IMG/VR virus record: IMGVR_UViG_3300029999_000477
Span: 1-46,168 of that record
Reading direction: 5' to 3' (one strand)
Length of the DNA stretch: 46,168 nucleotides
DNA from: a virus
Made by a program: the position numbers and the translations under genes. Under the pieces are notes generated by a model, which saw only the letters and a program-made list of their open reading frames with translations, did not search any database and was not told where the DNA came from. Shown piece by piece: positions 13,900-46,168 of the stretch (position 1 is the first letter of the stretch; each line of letters begins with the position of its first letter).

Positions 13900-15362
13900 G
13901 CAAGATTGCCATTATCACCTCCTGGGACGCGAAGTATCAACCGATCGCCGACGTAACGGTGCCGATCCTGCGCGCGTATGCAGATAGGTGGGGATACACC
14001 CTGCACACGGGCACATACACTGCCGATCCGGAGAACCTGCGAGACTATGGAGACCGCGGGAAAATTGATCTCTTTATGCAGGTTTACGATACGCACTCTG
14101 CAGTGATGTTTCTCGACATTGACGCGATCGTGATGAACCACGACATCAAGATCGAGGACGTTTGCAACGGAAGATACTTCACCTGGTCCTATGATCCGTC
14201 AGGTCCGTGTAGCGGATTTTGGATCGCGCGCTGTGTCCCCGAGGTACGAAATGCTCTTCTCGTGGTCCAGAGGCTTGCGCAAGAGCGTGGGAAAATCACG
14301 GTGCGAGAGAATCTCGGTCCGCCGCATAACGTTGTTCTTCAGATGGAGCCGCACGGCGCAAGCGATCAAGATGTCATGACGCAGCTCCTTGGCGTCCCGC
14401 CGTTCAGTTTGGTGTTCGGTTATGAGGGGCATTTGCGTCCTGCAAAAGAAGTCGGACATTGCTATCATAATGCTCGTTACCACGGGTGGGAGGGATTGGA
14501 GGATCAAGTCCAATACGAGCCCGGTGACTGGATCGTGACCGCGCCGTCGTATCCATTCGAGGAGCGGCTGGCAATCCTAAAGTCGTACGCTGAAACGATA
14601 TATTCATCGGCGCGAGTGGAGCGTCTTGAGACTCATCCTGAATCGGAAAAGTTTGACCGAAATTGGTGCGGACCGGAGGAACTCAAGCCGCGCGTTTATC
14701 GGACCCAATCCGAGAAAGACACCTGGCATGCCTGCGTCGTCGATAACGAGTACCGCTTACCACGCAAGCTAAATGAGTGGGACATTGTTATCGATATCGG
14801 TGCGCACATCGGTTCATTATCATATGCAGCACACGTGAGCGGATCACGTCACATTTACGCCTTCGAGATTGATCCCTGGCACATGGATGCAGCTCAAGAA
14901 AATCTGAAGCCCTGGTTGGATGATTCGATCGCTCTACATCATGCGGCGGTTGTACGTGGTGATGGATATCGTTCGAAGACGTATCGATATAATGGCGCAT
15001 GGAACTCATTCGGAGTCGTCGGAGCCGAGGTCCCGTCTATATCGCTCGATCAGATCATCGAAGACGCCTGCCCGAATGGTGAGCGTGTGCGATTCCTGAA
15101 GATTGACTGCGAAGGAGGAGAGTGGCCAATTCTCTACACCTGCACGAAACTCGACCACGTTGATGAGATCGCGGGAGAGTACCACACATCAATCGATAGG
15201 AGTGCTACCGAGCTTCAGAATCTGCCAGGGAAGATCGGGGCGTTTCATCTCTCGGAGTTTCTCGAGAAACACGGATTCCGCGTCGAAATCGCCGGGAGGG
15301 AAGAGATCGGAAACTTCTGGGCAAAGCGGGTGGGCAAAGCGGGTGGGCAAAGTGGGTCATAA
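13896..15362 (+). CDS. Bifunctional GT34-like glycosyltransferase / FkbM methyltransferase
   Basis: 488 residues. The first about 230 resemble the two upstream glycosyltransferases: MSKIAIITSWDAKYQPIAD opening, AVMFLDIDAIVMNHD with DxD, and EPGDWIVTAPSYP near the domain end. From about residue 290 a SAM methyltransferase of the FkbM type follows: VIDIGAHIGSLSYAAH (SAM loop), YAFEIDPWHMDAA, and FLKIDCEGGEWPIL (the KID.EG.E signature). FkbM enzymes O-methylate sugars and polyketides, so one protein could add and then methylate a sugar cap. Its last codons lie in a 13-bp triple repeat, and its stop overlaps the convergent terminase gene by 6 bp. Confidence 0.7.
   Translation: MSKIAIITSWDAKYQPIADVTVPILRAYADRWGYTLHTGTYTADPENLRDYGDRGKIDLFMQVYDTHSAVMFLDIDAIVMNHDIKIEDVCNGRYFTWSYDPSGPCSGFWIARCVPEVRNALLVVQRLAQERGKITVRENLGPPHNVVLQMEPHGASDQDVMTQLLGVPPFSLVFGYEGHLRPAKEVGHCYHNARYHGWEGLEDQVQYEPGDWIVTAPSYPFEERLAILKSYAETIYSSARVERLETHPESEKFDRNWCGPEELKPRVYRTQSEKDTWHACVVDNEYRLPRKLNEWDIVIDIGAHIGSLSYAAHVSGSRHIYAFEIDPWHMDAAQENLKPWLDDSIALHHAAVVRGDGYRSKTYRYNGAWNSFGVVGAEVPSISLDQIIEDACPNGERVRFLKIDCEGGEWPILYTCTKLDHVDEIAGEYHTSIDRSATELQNLPGKIGAFHLSEFLEKHGFRVEIAGREEIGNFWAKRVGKAGGQSGS
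15325..15354. repeat. 13-bp tandem repeat at convergent gene ends
   Basis: Nearly three copies of GGGCAAAGCGGGT form the end of the fusion gene. Because 13 is not a multiple of 3, each copy is read in a different frame, so a copy change would alter the C-terminus of the fusion protein and could shift its stop into the terminase gene. Confidence 0.75.
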
Positions 15363-17366
15363 GTTCGCGAGATCAGGTCGGTTTCTCTCCTTAGGAGCGA
15401 ACCTCGTCATCTGAGCAAAACTCTTCTCGAACTCTTCGCGTTTTTGTTTTTCGTCGATCTGTTTGGTCCGATGGAGACCGGAGTACGGATCACGCTGGAT
15501 GCAGACAGCAATCGCTAGAGCGTCGTAGTGATCATCCTTGCCATTACGTGACTTGAACGAACCGCTTGGCTCTCGCCCGAGATTGCGTATCTCGTGGAGC
15601 GTCTTTCGGTCGGGAATGATGATGTCGGGGTCTGGCTTTCCGGTCTCGCGATCGCGACGGCAGATGACTTCGGTCATCGTCTGGTCCATGAGCGGTCGCG
15701 TTCTTCCACTCGTTTCCCAGCCTGGATATTTGGTCGATTCCGGATGGTCGGCGTCGTAGCGCTTCCAGTAGTGGACGTTCTGCATTCCTCGGTCGATGCA
15801 ACGACGGATGAGATCGTATCCCATGCCTTTGAGTTCCATCGCGTAATAGCAATTCCAGTACCACCGATAGATAAAATAGAGCTGGTTGATGAGCATATGC
15901 GATGGAACGCGCGCTTCGTAGGTACAGACGAGCTTGTTGTCACGGAAGCGTACGATCTGTGCGACGGTCGCATCGGCGTCGACGGACTCATAGGCAATGT
16001 CCGTATCAATGCCCATCGTGTATTTCTCCCCATTCTCCGGTGGCGCGTAGACGCGAATCTCTTGCCACTGGAGATTCTCGGGGTGCTTGTGATCGAATTT
16101 GTCTTCGGAGACAAAGAGACCACGAGCGATCGGCTCACGCTCCTGGCGAGAAACTGTATCGAGGCACGCTCGATCGAATGGAGCCTTCCCGGAATCGATG
16201 AACGCGCTCTCGATGGTAGTTAGAAACTCCTGCCTAAATGTTAATAGCTTAATCTCATTAGTTGGGAATTTGTATCCATCGATCTTTCTACGGCGCCAGA
16301 ATAGGCGCTCCGTCGACATTTCGTAACGGTCGCGAAACTCGAGTTCTTCCTCGCCACCGTACTTCTCAATCTTTCCGAGAGTGCTTTCGGTCTCTCCTCG
16401 CTGGTCGCGCGTAAGGGGCTTCAGCTCTCCTCTCGGGTTAGTCTTTGATCGGCATGTGTATTCTTCGTGAAAGCGCCAAGGGCATATCGCTGGCACCATA
16501 ACGTTTGGGTATCCGTCGATGACCGTATCAGGAACTCCCAGAACTCCATCGAGAATTTGCTCTGCGGTGATCTCTCCTTTCCAATTTTCAATCCTTTTTG
16601 TCCAGTCCGGATTTTCTTCTACGGCCTCCATGACCATGGGGTAATAGTGCTCGTCGATTCCGTTGGGCGTTGTATCTACTACGAAGATCGAATGAGGTGT
16701 ATTTGGTAGAGCGGATACGATTCCGGTCTGCACTGCTATCTGACGATCCTCATCCATGTGAGCATATTCAGAAACGACAACAAACCCAGGAGGGACGCCT
16801 CGGAAGCTTGATGGGACAGTAATTTGAAGCGCCGCATTGAGGCCGGGATTATGAATTCGGTCTTTGGGGTTCGGGTTCTCGAAAAAGAGATGCTTGAGGT
16901 TCTGAATGCGTCGCATCGGTTGCATCCAGCCGGGAAGGCCATTGATCATGGTTCCCAGGCGCGTCGCTTGCTCTGCGGCGACATCTTCGTCGTCGACAAG
17001 GATTAAAGAGCGTCGGTTCTCATCTAGGCAGTAGTGGAGTGCGCGCGCGATGTTATCGACAGTCCATCCGAGCTGACGTGCCTTGACTTCGGCGATACGT
17101 CCGGGAAGGCCATTGCGGAGCTGGCTGTCCAGCGCCGTTCGAAGGATGGCCTGCCCAACGAATGGCCTCAGGGTGACAAGCTCCCCGCTCTTGTCGGCGA
17201 CATAGGCGAAGTTCGAGGCGAAGAAGTTGAAGCTCTCGTGCACCTGCCTCGTCAGAGCGACTCGCCACATGTTCTCGTGGCCTGATTCCGGTTCGACCCG
17301 CCCGTACTTCTGCTGGAAAAACTGCGCTACCGTGAGGCGCTCGTCCGGCCGATATAGTGCTTGCAT
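15357..17366 (-). CDS. terL: Terminase large subunit
   Basis: 669 residues. The ATPase half has a Walker A-like KARQLGWT (residues 95-102) and a Walker B-type FVVVSEYAHM with catalytic Glu near 200. The nuclease half begins with TMGIDTDIAYE (Asp near 454), then AMELKGMGYDL, and near the end KDDHYDALAIA with the last metal-binding Asp. It drives DNA into the procapsid through the portal and cuts genome ends. The ATG follows an AAAGGA site. It is the only virion gene on the minus strand, placed back-to-back with the portal-side operon and convergent with the glycosyltransferase cluster, a rare arrangement. Confidence 0.9.
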   Translation of the reverse strand: MQALYRPDERLTVAQFFQQKYGRVEPESGHENMWRVALTRQVHESFNFFASNFAYVADKSGELVTLRPFVGQAILRTALDSQLRNGLPGRIAEVKARQLGWTVDNIARALHYCLDENRRSLILVDDEDVAAEQATRLGTMINGLPGWMQPMRRIQNLKHLFFENPNPKDRIHNPGLNAALQITVPSSFRGVPPGFVVVSEYAHMDEDRQIAVQTGIVSALPNTPHSIFVVDTTPNGIDEHYYPMVMEAVEENPDWTKRIENWKGEITAEQILDGVLGVPDTVIDGYPNVMVPAICPWRFHEEYTCRSKTNPRGELKPLTRDQRGETESTLGKIEKYGGEEELEFRDRYEMSTERLFWRRRKIDGYKFPTNEIKLLTFRQEFLTTIESAFIDSGKAPFDRACLDTVSRQEREPIARGLFVSEDKFDHKHPENLQWQEIRVYAPPENGEKYTMGIDTDIAYESVDADATVAQIVRFRDNKLVCTYEARVPSHMLINQLYFIYRWYWNCYYAMELKGMGYDLIRRCIDRGMQNVHYWKRYDADHPESTKYPGWETSGRTRPLMDQTMTEVICRRDRETGKPDPDIIIPDRKTLHEIRNLGREPSGSFKSRNGKDDHYDALAIAVCIQRDPYSGLHRTKQIDEKQKREEFEKSFAQMTRFAPKERNRPDLANL

Positions 17367-18301: not shown

Positions 18302-18504
18302 TCGCCAACACGGTCTATGCCGAATGCTTCGGTGGACCGCTTGATGGAGACCGTCACCTTGTTCCATTTATTTCGTGCATTCGCTTTAGGAAAGAGTTGA
18401 TGCTCTCGTCTGGATATTGTGTCCAAGAGTCGGTGTATGCCCTTGAGGCAATGGAGAGTGGCGTCTTCCGCTTACGCTATATCTCGAGTATTGATAGCAA
18501 GTGA
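18298..18504 (+). CDS. Small GGPLDG-motif phage protein (68 aa)
   Basis: AECFGGPLDGDRHLVPF near the start matches the GGPLDG signature of a small phage protein type found next to structural genes in many phages. Function of the type is not known. ATGA overlap upstream and GTGA overlap with the portal downstream. Confidence 0.6.
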   Translation: MIANTVYAECFGGPLDGDRHLVPFISCIRFRKELMLSSGYCVQESVYALEAMESGVFRLRYISSIDSK

Positions 18505-43318: not shown

Positions 43319-43638
43319 GGTTTCTCCTCGAGAGGGGGGGTTCAAGTGTCGTTGTCATACGTTCATCAAATTACGCTGCGGAAACCTCGGCGTTTAGGCC
43401 GGGGAGGAACAGCACGGGCCTAGTGACGGAGATTTTTTTAAGAAATCTCGCTCCCCTCGGGAAAGTTCGTAGCCAGCCTTATTTAAGTGCTCACAGCCGT
43501 TTCGTGCCTGACTCGGCGTGTCTGCTCTGTGAGCTTCAAGTGGTCCAAACTGAGGAAGTATTTGGACGTTGGTCGTTTGCTTGCATTGAACGTAGTGGTG
43601 CGGGGACCACTGACCCTGGTCAATATGGGCTTGGGGTA
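43319..43638. other. Noncoding, structured region
   Basis: About 320 bp with no convincing gene. It contains several inverted repeats on the plus strand: GAGATTT/AAATCTC (43429-43449), GTCCAAA/TTTGGAC (43543-43567), GTGGT/ACCAC around 43595-43612 and CTTGG/CCAAG near 43630-43647, plus hairpin 1. The density of hairpins suggests a structured RNA or an insertion-sequence remnant. Confidence 0.5.
43385..43404 (+). ncRNA. GTTTAG-loop hairpin 1 (IS200/IS605- or omega-RNA-like)
   Basis: CCTCGGC-GTTTAG-GCCGGGG forms a 7-bp stem with one G-U pair, preceded by AAA and followed by AGGAAC. I recall AA-stem-TTTA-stem-GGAGGA as typical of the right-end hairpin of IS200/IS605 elements and of the omega-RNA of TnpB. 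No tnpB gene is nearby, so this may be a remnant or a non-autonomous element. Confidence 0.35.
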
Positions 43639-43827
43639 TTAATCCAAGCCTCGGGGTTTAGCCCGAGGTCGTTGACTAAAACCGCAATCGTGGCAAATAA
43701 TGAGGCCGTCGTAGTCTCGCGACCATCGGTACTTCGAGCTGCACTTCGGACAAGGTAGGCAGCCGTACATGTTCACATCGGCGGTCTTGCACGAGAGATC
43801 CACGATATTGCTCGCCGCTTCACTCAT
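43639..43827 (-). CDS. Zinc-ribbon protein (62 aa)
   Basis: GCLPCPKCSSKYRWSRDYDG and IICHDCGFSQRP give two CxxC pairs 16-20 residues apart, a classic zinc ribbon like phage restriction-alleviation (Lar-type) proteins (CP.C......C..CG). The start overlaps the methyltransferase stop by 8 bp. An anti-restriction or nucleic-acid role would fit its neighbour, but is inferred. The C-terminal codons lie over hairpin 2. Confidence 0.65.
   Translation of the reverse strand: MSEAASNIVDLSCKTADVNMYGCLPCPKCSSKYRWSRDYDGLIICHDCGFSQRPRAKPRGLD
43649..43668 (+). ncRNA. GTTTAG-loop hairpin 2
   Basis: CCTCGGG-GTTTAG-CCCGAGG: same total length, same hexaloop and same orientation as hairpin 1, 264 bp away. TCGTTGAC follows. 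It overlaps the 3' end of the minus-strand zinc-ribbon gene. Confidence 0.4.
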
Positions 43828-44557
43828 CGACAGTCTCCTCTTGTGCAGCGGATATAGAATTCTTGAACTCGCAAGCAGACATGAGTTGCGCGCCGATCCA
43901 TTCGCAATAAGCTGGAGGGATCGCTTGATTCACTTCCTTGCCGACCATCCAAGTCGTATCAAGAAGCGCACGACGAACGGCGTGAGACGGAGCGTATCCT
44001 CCCCGACCCCGAGTCTCGTTCTTGGTTTTGTTCCTGTTCGATGGACCTCCGCCATAGACTCCTCCGCACCGAACGGTCTGGTCGCCACAGGTACAATGCG
44101 TCGGCATGTTCAGCCATACGTTCGACTCGAAAAGACGATGACGTTTGAGGAATAGCTCTTTCCCATCCGTGTCAATGGCACGAAGACCGAACATCGTGCC
44201 GCAGAGGATGATCGGGGCTTCGAGAGGCGCACCGATGACGTTCTCGATTACGTATGGAAGACCGGATGCGCGAAGTCTCTCACGCGTCGGTACGATAAGC
44301 TCAGGGTGTTTTACGTGCGGATGCGTGAAACGCGTCACCGAGTACGCCTGGCATGGCGGGCTCGCATGTATCACATCGAACCCGTCGAGCGGGAACGTCA
44401 TCGCGTCGGCTCGGTGGAACTCGTCGCCCGCGTACCGAGGCTGCGGATTGATGTCGACACCGACGACGTAGAACCCAGCACGCTGGTATCCGCGCGCTGC
44501 ACCTCCAGCGCCGCAGAAGAGATCGAGGAGACGGCGCTTCACCATTACGATGGGCAT
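43820..44557 (-). CDS. DNA cytosine-5 methyltransferase
   Basis: 245 residues. Motif I LLDLFCGAGGAARGYQRAGF is near the start, motif IV ASPPCQAYS (catalytic Cys 69), motif VI VIENVIGA (Glu 105), motif VIII-like LKRHRLFESN and motif X AIPPAYCEWIGAQLM. The target-recognition part is short, with CTCGDQTVRCGG. It methylates cytosine C5 in DNA, probably to protect the phage from host restriction. The start chosen is the ATG 15 bp after the upstream stop; a longer open frame upstream is a shadow of the neighbouring gene. No endonuclease partner is visible. Confidence 0.85.
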   Translation of the reverse strand: MPIVMVKRRLLDLFCGAGGAARGYQRAGFYVVGVDINPQPRYAGDEFHRADAMTFPLDGFDVIHASPPCQAYSVTRFTHPHVKHPELIVPTRERLRASGLPYVIENVIGAPLEAPIILCGTMFGLRAIDTDGKELFLKRHRLFESNVWLNMPTHCTCGDQTVRCGGVYGGGPSNRNKTKNETRGRGGYAPSHAVRRALLDTTWMVGKEVNQAIPPAYCEWIGAQLMSACEFKNSISAAQEETVDE

Positions 44558-44571
44558 ACTCGTATTCGGGA

Positions 44572-44900
44572 TCACTCGGCTCGCCACCGAACTGTCGTAT
44601 TTGGCCAGCAGACCGGTGCGGCCTTGAGTAGCTCGAGGAGCACGCGGCTCATCGCGACGTAGCCCGCGCTCTCCGCCGCGTAGGCCGCGCTCCTCACCGC
44701 GTTGGCCACGCTCCCGGCGCTCCGTGCGTCGCAGACGAATCGCATGCGCCGCAGACGAATCGCATGCGCCGAACCGGCGCCATGAGTCCACGAAGCAGGG
44801 CAATGACGTGCTCGCTGTCGTCGTTCGTTAAATGGACGAGGGCGCCGCATTCCGAGCAGCGCAATGTCGCCGAGGCGAGTGCGGGGCCGTGCATGTTCAT
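44572..44900 (-). pseudogene. Zinc-ribbon/Ala-repeat protein frameshifted by a 20-bp tandem duplication
   Basis: Start MNMHGPALASATLRCSECGALV with AAGGAG upstream. After MRFVC the frame enters a second copy of a 20-bp unit, shifts, and ends early (68 aa). Deleting one copy joins MRFVC to DARSAGSVANAVRSAAYAAE and gives a clean 102-residue protein ending at 44572. Its C-terminus (YVAMSRVLLELLKAAP) matches the end of the repeat protein at 45643. So the intact form fuses a CxxC ribbon to an Ala-repeat tail. Confidence 0.75.
44731..44770. repeat. 20-bp perfect tandem duplication
   Basis: GCAGACGAATCGCATGCGCC twice, back-to-back (44731-44750, 44751-44770). Because 20 is not a multiple of 3 it breaks the gene that contains it. 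Confidence 0.95.
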
Positions 44901-45145
44901 GATTTTCTCCTTGCAGCGCGCTCACGTTGCGCCTTGCGCTGGTGTTGCGGCGAGCAGTAGCGGGCCTCGTTTGCGCGCCGCTCGAGAACGAGACGTAGCG
45001 GTAACGGTGCATGGCAAAAAGCGCACTGCGGCAGTCCACCCTTACGGGCGAACGACACCACGACATCCGCGACGTCGGTTCCCGGTCCGAGAAGCCGGTC
45101 GACCGACGCGCGGAATTCTGCCTCTCCATGCGCATGCCGCTCCAT
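44897..45145 (-). CDS. Small zinc-finger protein (82 aa)
   Basis: CAFCHAPLPLRLVLERRANE followed by ARYCSPQHQRKAQRERAARR: a CxxC pair and a later C...H in a basic helix, like the YCS..C/H..A.R.R treble-clef tail of small bacterial zinc fingers. The N-terminus (VDRLLGPGTDVADVVVSFAR) is helical. Start set by a 1-nt TGATG overlap with the tiny upstream gene; an in-frame ATG 15 bp earlier is possible. Ends with ATGA overlap. Confidence 0.65.
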   Translation of the reverse strand: MERHAHGEAEFRASVDRLLGPGTDVADVVVSFARKGGLPQCAFCHAPLPLRLVLERRANEARYCSPQHQRKAQRERAARRKS

Positions 45146-45216
45146 CACTCGCGTTCCCATGTCTCCCCCTCTGCCCAGAGCCGAGCCCAGACGCGCTGGC
45201 CATTGATTTTCTGCAT
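45145..45216 (-). CDS. Tiny protein downstream of hammerhead ribozyme (23 aa)
   Basis: MQKINGQRVWARLWAEGETW..., preceded by a good AAAGGAG site. The site lies about 25 nt downstream of the ribozyme cut, so self-cleavage would leave an mRNA with a short leader and 5'-hydroxyl end starting just before this gene. Too short for a family call. Confidence 0.55.
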   Translation of the reverse strand: MQKINGQRVWARLWAEGETWERE

Positions 45217-45245
45217 GGTGCTCCTTTGAGCTGGTTGCGTAATTC

Positions 45246-45297
45246 CCGCGACGCCGCCGAAGCGGCGTTTCGTCCGATCGTCGGACTCATCAGGCGG
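45246..45297 (-). ncRNA. Type I hammerhead ribozyme
   Basis: On the minus strand all core elements are in order: CTGATGA (45293-45287), stem II GTCCGA-CGA-TCGGAC (6 perfect pairs), GAAA (45271-45268), stem III CGCCGC-TTCG-GCGGCG (6 perfect pairs, C(UUCG)G tetraloop), then TC with cleavage expected between 45250 and 45249. Helix I, the open one, is CCGC (45297-45294) with GCGG (45249-45246). It begins 1-2 bases after the stop codon of the upstream gene and would separate the upstream and downstream parts of the operon mRNA. Confidence 0.9.
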
Positions 45298-45298
45298 C

Positions 45299-45646
45299 CT
45301 AGGGTAGGTCCTCTCCGGTGATGATAGCGTGTTCGAGACATGCTTCGGCGTGATCGCGATTGAAGCGCGGCGTTTTCGGGTCGGGCGCGCATTGTGCCCA
45401 AGCATCACGGATGCGCTGCCTCAGCGTGGTCTTGCGTCCGAGCGAATCGACGACGACCATTCCAGGATCGAGGTTGACGTCGCCGATATCGTCGGGATTG
45501 GTGGGGCATTGTAAGTGGTAGGTCATGCTCGCCGCGGTGACCTCGATCGCTTGCAGCGTGCAGATGCTCTGCTGCTGGCTGCTGATGGTGTTAACTCCGA
45601 TCCATAAGGCGGTGGTGAGTAGGGCGAGGATGAGGGGCGCGCTCAT
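45299..45646 (-). CDS. Membrane-anchored protein (115 aa)
   Basis: Begins MSAPLILALLTTALWIGV, a single N-terminal membrane segment or uncleaved signal. The outer part has four Cys (SICTLQ, LQCPTN, AQCAPD, EACLEH), suggesting disulfides outside the cytoplasm. A central VVVDSLGRKTTLRQRIRDAW is conserved-looking. ATGA overlap with the repeat-protein stop fixes the start. The stop codon abuts the hammerhead ribozyme. No family recognised. Confidence 0.65.
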   Translation of the reverse strand: MSAPLILALLTTALWIGVNTISSQQQSICTLQAIEVTAASMTYHLQCPTNPDDIGDVNLDPGMVVVDSLGRKTTLRQRIRDAWAQCAPDPKTPRFNRDHAEACLEHAIITGEDLP

Positions 45647-46168
45647 GATGCGTCCTCGCACGGGACGGGTGCTGCTACGAGCAGCTCGAGGAGCACGCGG
45701 CTCATCGCGACGTAGGCCGCGCCCTCGTCGGTCACGGCGCTCTGGGCGTTCTCGGCGACGCTCCGGGCGCTCCGGGCGCTCCGGGCGGCGCTCCAGGCGG
45801 CGCTCTGGGCGCTCCAGGCGGCGCTCCGGGCGCTCCGGGCGGCGCTCTGGGCGCTCTCGATGGCGCTCTCGGCGCTCCGGGCGGCGCTCCAGGCGGCGCT
45901 CTCGGCGCTCCGGGCGGCGCTCCGGGCGCTCCAGGCGGCGCTCCAGGCGGCGCTCCGGGCGCTCTGGAGGGTGCTCTCGGGCACCTCATGTCCATCGGCG
46001 AGGCGTTTCATGATGTCGGCGACGTTGCTGACAGCGTCGCCGACGAGGGGATGGGTGATGCCCGGGGTGATGGTTTGGTCGGTGAGGATGCGATGGAGAA
46101 AGGCCCAGGAGACGCGCGAGAGATCGGCGCCGACGGGGATGGCCTCGATGAAGGCGATGGGCCAGCGC
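45643..46168 (-). CDS. Ala/Ser-rich repeat phage protein, C-terminal part (runs off right edge)
   Basis: Enters from the window edge as RWPIAFIEAIPVGADLSRVSWAFL, then ADIMKRLADGHEV, about 60 residues of five-residue repeats (ARSAAWSA, ESAAWSAARSAESA) and the end YVAMSRVLLELL. The AIPVGADLS block followed by Ala/Trp/Arg repeats is typical of the phage protein type whose N-terminus is at 1-123. The expected middle (GKGCAVGC-like region) is missing from the window. The repeats give a regular alpha-helical, possibly amphipathic surface. Function unknown; Imm-5-like naming does not prove immunity. Confidence 0.7.
   Translation of the reverse strand, partial: RWPIAFIEAIPVGADLSRVSWAFLHRILTDQTITPGITHPLVGDAVSNVADIMKRLADGHEVPESTLQSARSAAWSAAWSARSAARSAESAAWSAARSAESAIESAQSAARSARSAAWSAQSAAWSAARSARSARSVAENAQSAVTDEGAAYVAMSRVLLELLVAAPVPCEDAS
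45717..45968. repeat. 15-bp-type coding repeats
   Basis: GC-rich iterations of GGCGCTCCRGGCGGCGCTC and variants encode the (A/S)xSA repeats. Copy number could change by slippage, and read-assembly through this stretch could be unreliable. Confidence 0.8.

Follow-up and report, generated by a model that had tools for sequence, protein, structure and literature searches.

A single type I hammerhead ribozyme between co-oriented phage genes as a probable divider of their mRNA

In 2011, individual prophage genes were reported to be flanked by hammerhead ribozymes (PMC3088659). In Agrobacterium tumefaciens, Azorhizobium caulinodans, and Clostridium scindens, tandem hammerheads flank the genes of polycistronic transcripts; those of all three species cleave in vitro, and the A. 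tumefaciens set also cleaves in E. coli (PMC3088659). The same study described a pseudoknot between loop II and the 3' tail, as well as a variant of the core, HHphage, in the haloviruses HF1 and HF2 (PMC3088659). The role of the hammerheads in phage operons was left undecided in 2011. A literature search that took in neither preprints nor the majority of subscription journals yielded no later paper on arrays of hammerheads in phages, and later work may exist.

Here, we analyzed a stretch of viral DNA of 46,168 nucleotides (the window), the minus strand of which carries one hammerhead. This copy is one more example of the known phage hammerheads and is ordinary in kind. It shares the common core, the permutation, and the intergenic phage placement with the Rfam type I family RF00163, including the phage and prophage hammerheads that Perreault et al. 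described in 2011 (PMC3088659), but it scores below the Rfam cut-off and has a 4-bp stem I, a 3-nt loop II, and no recognizable pseudoknot. The tandem hammerheads of the three species above form arrays, whereas the window has one copy near the contig end. HHphage likewise lies closely upstream of a start codon, at a distance of 13 nt; in the window, the core is standard and 33 nt separate the predicted cut from the start codon. The use of a ribozyme as an mRNA divider, which had been singled out as notable, is not new, because the gene-flanking prophage hammerheads were already published (PMC3088659).

The type I hammerhead occupies positions 45297-45246 of the minus strand and was recognized from the sequence, RF00163, a covariance model of our own (R1), and the predicted fold. 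Stem I (CCGC/GCGG, 45297-45294 and 45249-45246) is an open helix of 4 bp. It is followed by the core CUGAUGA (45293-45287), a 6-bp stem II (GUCCGA/UCGGAC, 45286-45281 and 45277-45272) with the loop CGA (45280-45278), the core GAA (45271-45269), and a 7-bp stem III (A plus CGCCGC paired with GCGGCG plus U, 45268-45262 and 45257-45251) with the loop UUCG (45261-45258). C17 is at 45250, and the predicted cleavage site, taken from the established hammerhead mechanism, is on its 3' side (45250/45249), with the downstream mRNA starting as 5'-OH-GCGGGAA. These elements, preceded by a single G, make up 45298-45246 and follow the UAG of a 115-aa gene. The conserved core (CUGANGA, GAA, the pair A15.1-U16.1, and H17) and the three helices, of which I is open and II and III are closed by loops, are all present; every core position is standard, and the alignment to R1 contains no non-standard pairs. 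The minimum free energy fold of the isolated 52 nt is exactly the hammerhead structure (-25.4 kcal/mol). The coordinates, the anatomy (CUGAUGA, stems I-III, UUCG loop), and the complete core described in the original prediction were correct; the label "perfect" was too strong, since a pseudoknot or another tertiary contact could not be recognized.

We conclude that the hammerhead is genuine and is a member of the type I family. With strict pattern criteria (stem I of at least 4 bp, stem II of 4, stem III of 5, and the full core), 80 Mb of sequence simulated to the dinucleotide composition of the window contained no match; looser limits gave 8 matches, corresponding to 0.009 expected per window. 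Model R1, which was trained on 56 viral and prokaryotic type I hammerheads with the window excluded, gave 61.6 bits (E ~1e-15), and the next-best place in the window reached 8.6 bits. In the R1 training alignment, 99.2% of the cells are paired and both sides vary in 11 of the 14 pairs; this covariation is inflated, as the sequences were picked via a stem filter, and was not counted as independent proof. The simulation and the independent covariance model together rule out a chance origin. Neither the pattern search nor R1 found a further type I, II, or III hammerhead in the 46-kb window.

The score with RF00163 was 26.1 bits (E 1.8e-4 over 251 bases), below the gathering cut-off of 34 bits, which is a curation threshold and not a structural feature. 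The low score goes back to a mispairing in the Rfam alignment, where the 5' arm of stem I is matched to a portion of the 3' arm of stem III. Therefore, a default Rfam search at the gathering threshold does not report the window hammerhead, and the forecast of a type I score far above the threshold failed.

The hammerhead sits between co-oriented phage genes on the minus strand. The upstream gene (45299-45646, with an alternative earlier GTG start at 45661) encodes 115 aa with a hydrophobic N-terminus, has no Pfam or PHROG match, and ends with UAG at 45301-45299. It is overlapped through ATGA by a gene with SA-rich repeats (45643-46167; phrog_18326, E 2.3e-6), which is open at the contig end. 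Downstream of the ribozyme are a ribosome binding site, AAAGGAG (45227-45221), and an AUG (45216-45214), together spanning 45214-45227. The AUG begins a 23-aa ORF (MQKINGQRVWARLWAEGETWERE, 45145-45216), which shares a TGATG overlap with the in-frame AUG of an 87-aa ORF (44897-45160). The latter carries zinc-binding-like residues (CxxC and YCSPxH) and has no family match in Pfam or PHROG. Next is a DNA cytosine methyltransferase gene (43820-44803; PF00145, E 2e-5; phrog_363, E 7e-31), the true start of which is probably near 44555. In the SA-rich gene, the repeats WSAAWSAARSA lie at 45740-45990, and its 3' part, AYVAMSRVLLELL, partly recurs on the same strand at about 44600-44690, upstream of the methyltransferase; this partial recurrence suggests a duplication.

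The UAG was said to be immediately before the ribozyme; it does adjoin the motif, but one nucleotide (45298) separates it from stem I. The ribosome binding site lies about 18 nt past the end of the motif and about 24 nt from the predicted cut. The distance of about 30 nt originally assigned to the ribosome binding site is that to the start codon at 45216, which is 33 nt after the predicted cut.

When viral contigs were scanned with a pattern, a similar motif turned up in at least 120 viral stretches. A stricter pattern, with stem I at 4 bp as in the window, had 94 viral matches and 50 in prokaryote genomes, the latter mostly from Paenibacillus and related Bacillota, Clostridia, Arthrospira, and others. 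From the matches listed, 323 distinct hammerheads were extracted. To describe their placement independently of gene calling, we looked for a reading frame that spans at least 100 codons and ends between -60 and +30 of the core, for 288 hammerheads among the matches listed. Such a long upstream frame was present for 173 of them; random positions gave 44 and the opposite strand 41. In 141 of the 173, the stop was within -14 to +4 of the first core nucleotide (24% at random positions). The window stop, which ends at -5, falls in one of the two main peaks of this distribution. For 54 of the 173 relatives (L002-L261), the upstream frame stops at the UGA inside the core CUGAUGA, and in these a single UGA would double as stop codon and as part of the catalytic core. 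When called genes were used, the median distances from the cut in the relatives were 32 nt to the start codon and 23 nt to the ribosome binding site, compared with 33 and about 24 nt in the window. The placement in the window is typical for phage and prophage hammerheads. From this geometry of stop and leader, it follows that the ribozyme is placed as a separator, behind one gene and before the leader of the next.

The best-supported explanation is that a type I hammerhead of a tailed phage acts in cis as an mRNA divider, to which we assign a probability of about 0.8; the original prediction had read the locus in the same way, the placement agrees with that of most relatives, and cleavage itself is inferred. 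Self-cleavage of hammerheads yields a 5'-OH and a 2',3'-cyclic phosphate, and a 5'-monophosphate stimulates RNase E. By this chemistry, the polycistronic transcript would be cut after C17. The upstream mRNA would then end just past its stop codon, with the GC-rich hairpins II and III followed by a terminal 2',3'-cyclic phosphate, features that should delay 3' exonucleases. The downstream mRNA would begin as 5'-OH-GCGGGAAUUACGCAACCAGCUCAAAGGAGCACCAUG, a short leader with the ribosome binding site, and its 5'-OH end should escape 5'-phosphate-dependent decay by RNase E. With one end sheltered and the other lacking a 5'-monophosphate, the halves would have separate fates, each being translated and degraded independently.

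The group-wide stop-codon geometry is the most useful by-product of this analysis; the wording "stop codon" is absent from the main text of the 2011 paper (PMC3088659). The fixed arrangement, with the stop at or inside the ribozyme and about 32 nt from the cut to the start codon, points to mRNA punctuation, a role that 5'-OH sequencing of a cultured phage or prophage could test directly. A broader proposal, to which we give slightly less than an even chance, is that phage hammerheads are a standard gene-punctuation module. They would be fused to a stop codon (in about one-third via the core UGA), be followed by a short leader before the next start, and break operons up into mRNAs of one gene each, protected at the 3' end and beginning with a 5'-OH. 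In this scheme, the window copy, which lacks the pseudoknot, would belong to the slow members and set the ratio of full-length to split mRNA.

In the first scan, at least two hammerheads were present at 43 of the 113 viral loci among the matches listed, with up to eight at one locus. Six phage contigs (L098, L050, L208, L105, L108, and L120) have 4-8 successive hammerheads on one strand. The Arthrospira sp. PCC 9108 chromosome (CP066886.1) has ten matching hammerhead places (L214, L215, L223, L224, L237, L239, L243, L248, L255, and L261); those displayed are near-identical and resemble a dispersed repeat. Two hammerheads could excise the segment between them, and the 5'-OH and cyclic phosphate ends, being ligatable, could then be joined into a circular RNA. 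We regard this as very improbable for the window, even with multiple copies at so many viral loci, since the 46-kb record holds one hammerhead only and a published search of arrays found no circular products (PMC3088659); the contig ends 871 nt upstream, and a second copy may lie beyond.

For the divider reading, slow cleavage is the main doubt, because mutants that lost the pseudoknot were 20- to >100-fold slower (PMC3088659). In many relatives with short stems, loop II is able to pair with the 3' tail, e.g., UGCGGCA/UGCCGCA in L191. The mean score for this pairing in the short-stem relatives was 9.9, compared with 8.2 with shuffled tails, and a score of 9 was reached by 66% of them, compared with 43% with shuffled tails. 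In the window, the short loop II measures 3 nt, or 7 nt with stem II counted as 4 bp, and no more than 2 bp can form between it and the 3' tail, so that a pseudoknot is not recognizable; other contacts are possible. The window ribozyme therefore probably cleaves more slowly than its pseudoknotted relatives. It might even be a catalytically weak or decaying hammerhead that hardly cuts at the Mg2+ levels of the cell and acts chiefly as a 3' hairpin or has little function; the score below the RF00163 cut-off and the lack of a hammerhead in two related phages also speak for this. We consider it unlikely, as the core and all stems are intact, which is unexpected for a relic, its position between the genes matches that of the hammerhead relatives exactly, some short-loop relatives likewise have no loop II-tail pseudoknot, and unrecognized contacts may exist. 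Similar prophage arrays cleave in vitro, one of them also in E. coli (PMC3088659), and the window ribozyme is probably active.

Fold prediction with flanking sequence disfavored stem I of the window (P ~0). The median P for the short-stem-I relatives was also 0.0, and because the loss of stem I in silico is shared by most relatives, we rejected such folding as an argument against activity. When the 122-nt context was folded in silico, an upstream UCAUCA (about 45324-45319) paired with UGAUGA of the core, which might block cleavage until a ribosome passes. Such a translation-gated switch is hardly credible: the anti-core hexamer was found upstream of 3 of 320 hammerheads, compared with 6.5 expected by chance, and the anti-core helix was rejected as a general feature.

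The hammerhead is patchy in its occurrence; it is not conserved in the lineage and lies in a variable accessory cassette, as expected for phage hammerheads. We found no viral relatives of either gene flanking the ribozyme (the 87-aa and 120-aa ORFs), and no relatives of the large terminase. Two related phages, L262 and L263, were identified via the portal protein (65% and 70% identical), and neither matched the R1 hammerhead model. Three contigs with relatives of the methyltransferase (L122-L124) also had no hammerhead. The best candidate among all these contigs scored 12.9 bits (E 0.06) and was not convincing.

Elsewhere in the window, a large-terminase-like ORF on the minus strand (15357-17366) adjoins the structural genes of the plus strand, e.g., the portal gene at 18501. 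HEARO RNA is an RNA associated with IscB-type elements, and a copy (RF02033, 83.6 bits; cut-off 83) was found on the minus strand at 43445-43676, at the 3' end of a 62-aa zinc-ribbon ORF. It is absent from the two related phages. No IscB-sized ORF follows it on the minus strand, and this copy looks like a solo or MITE-like element.
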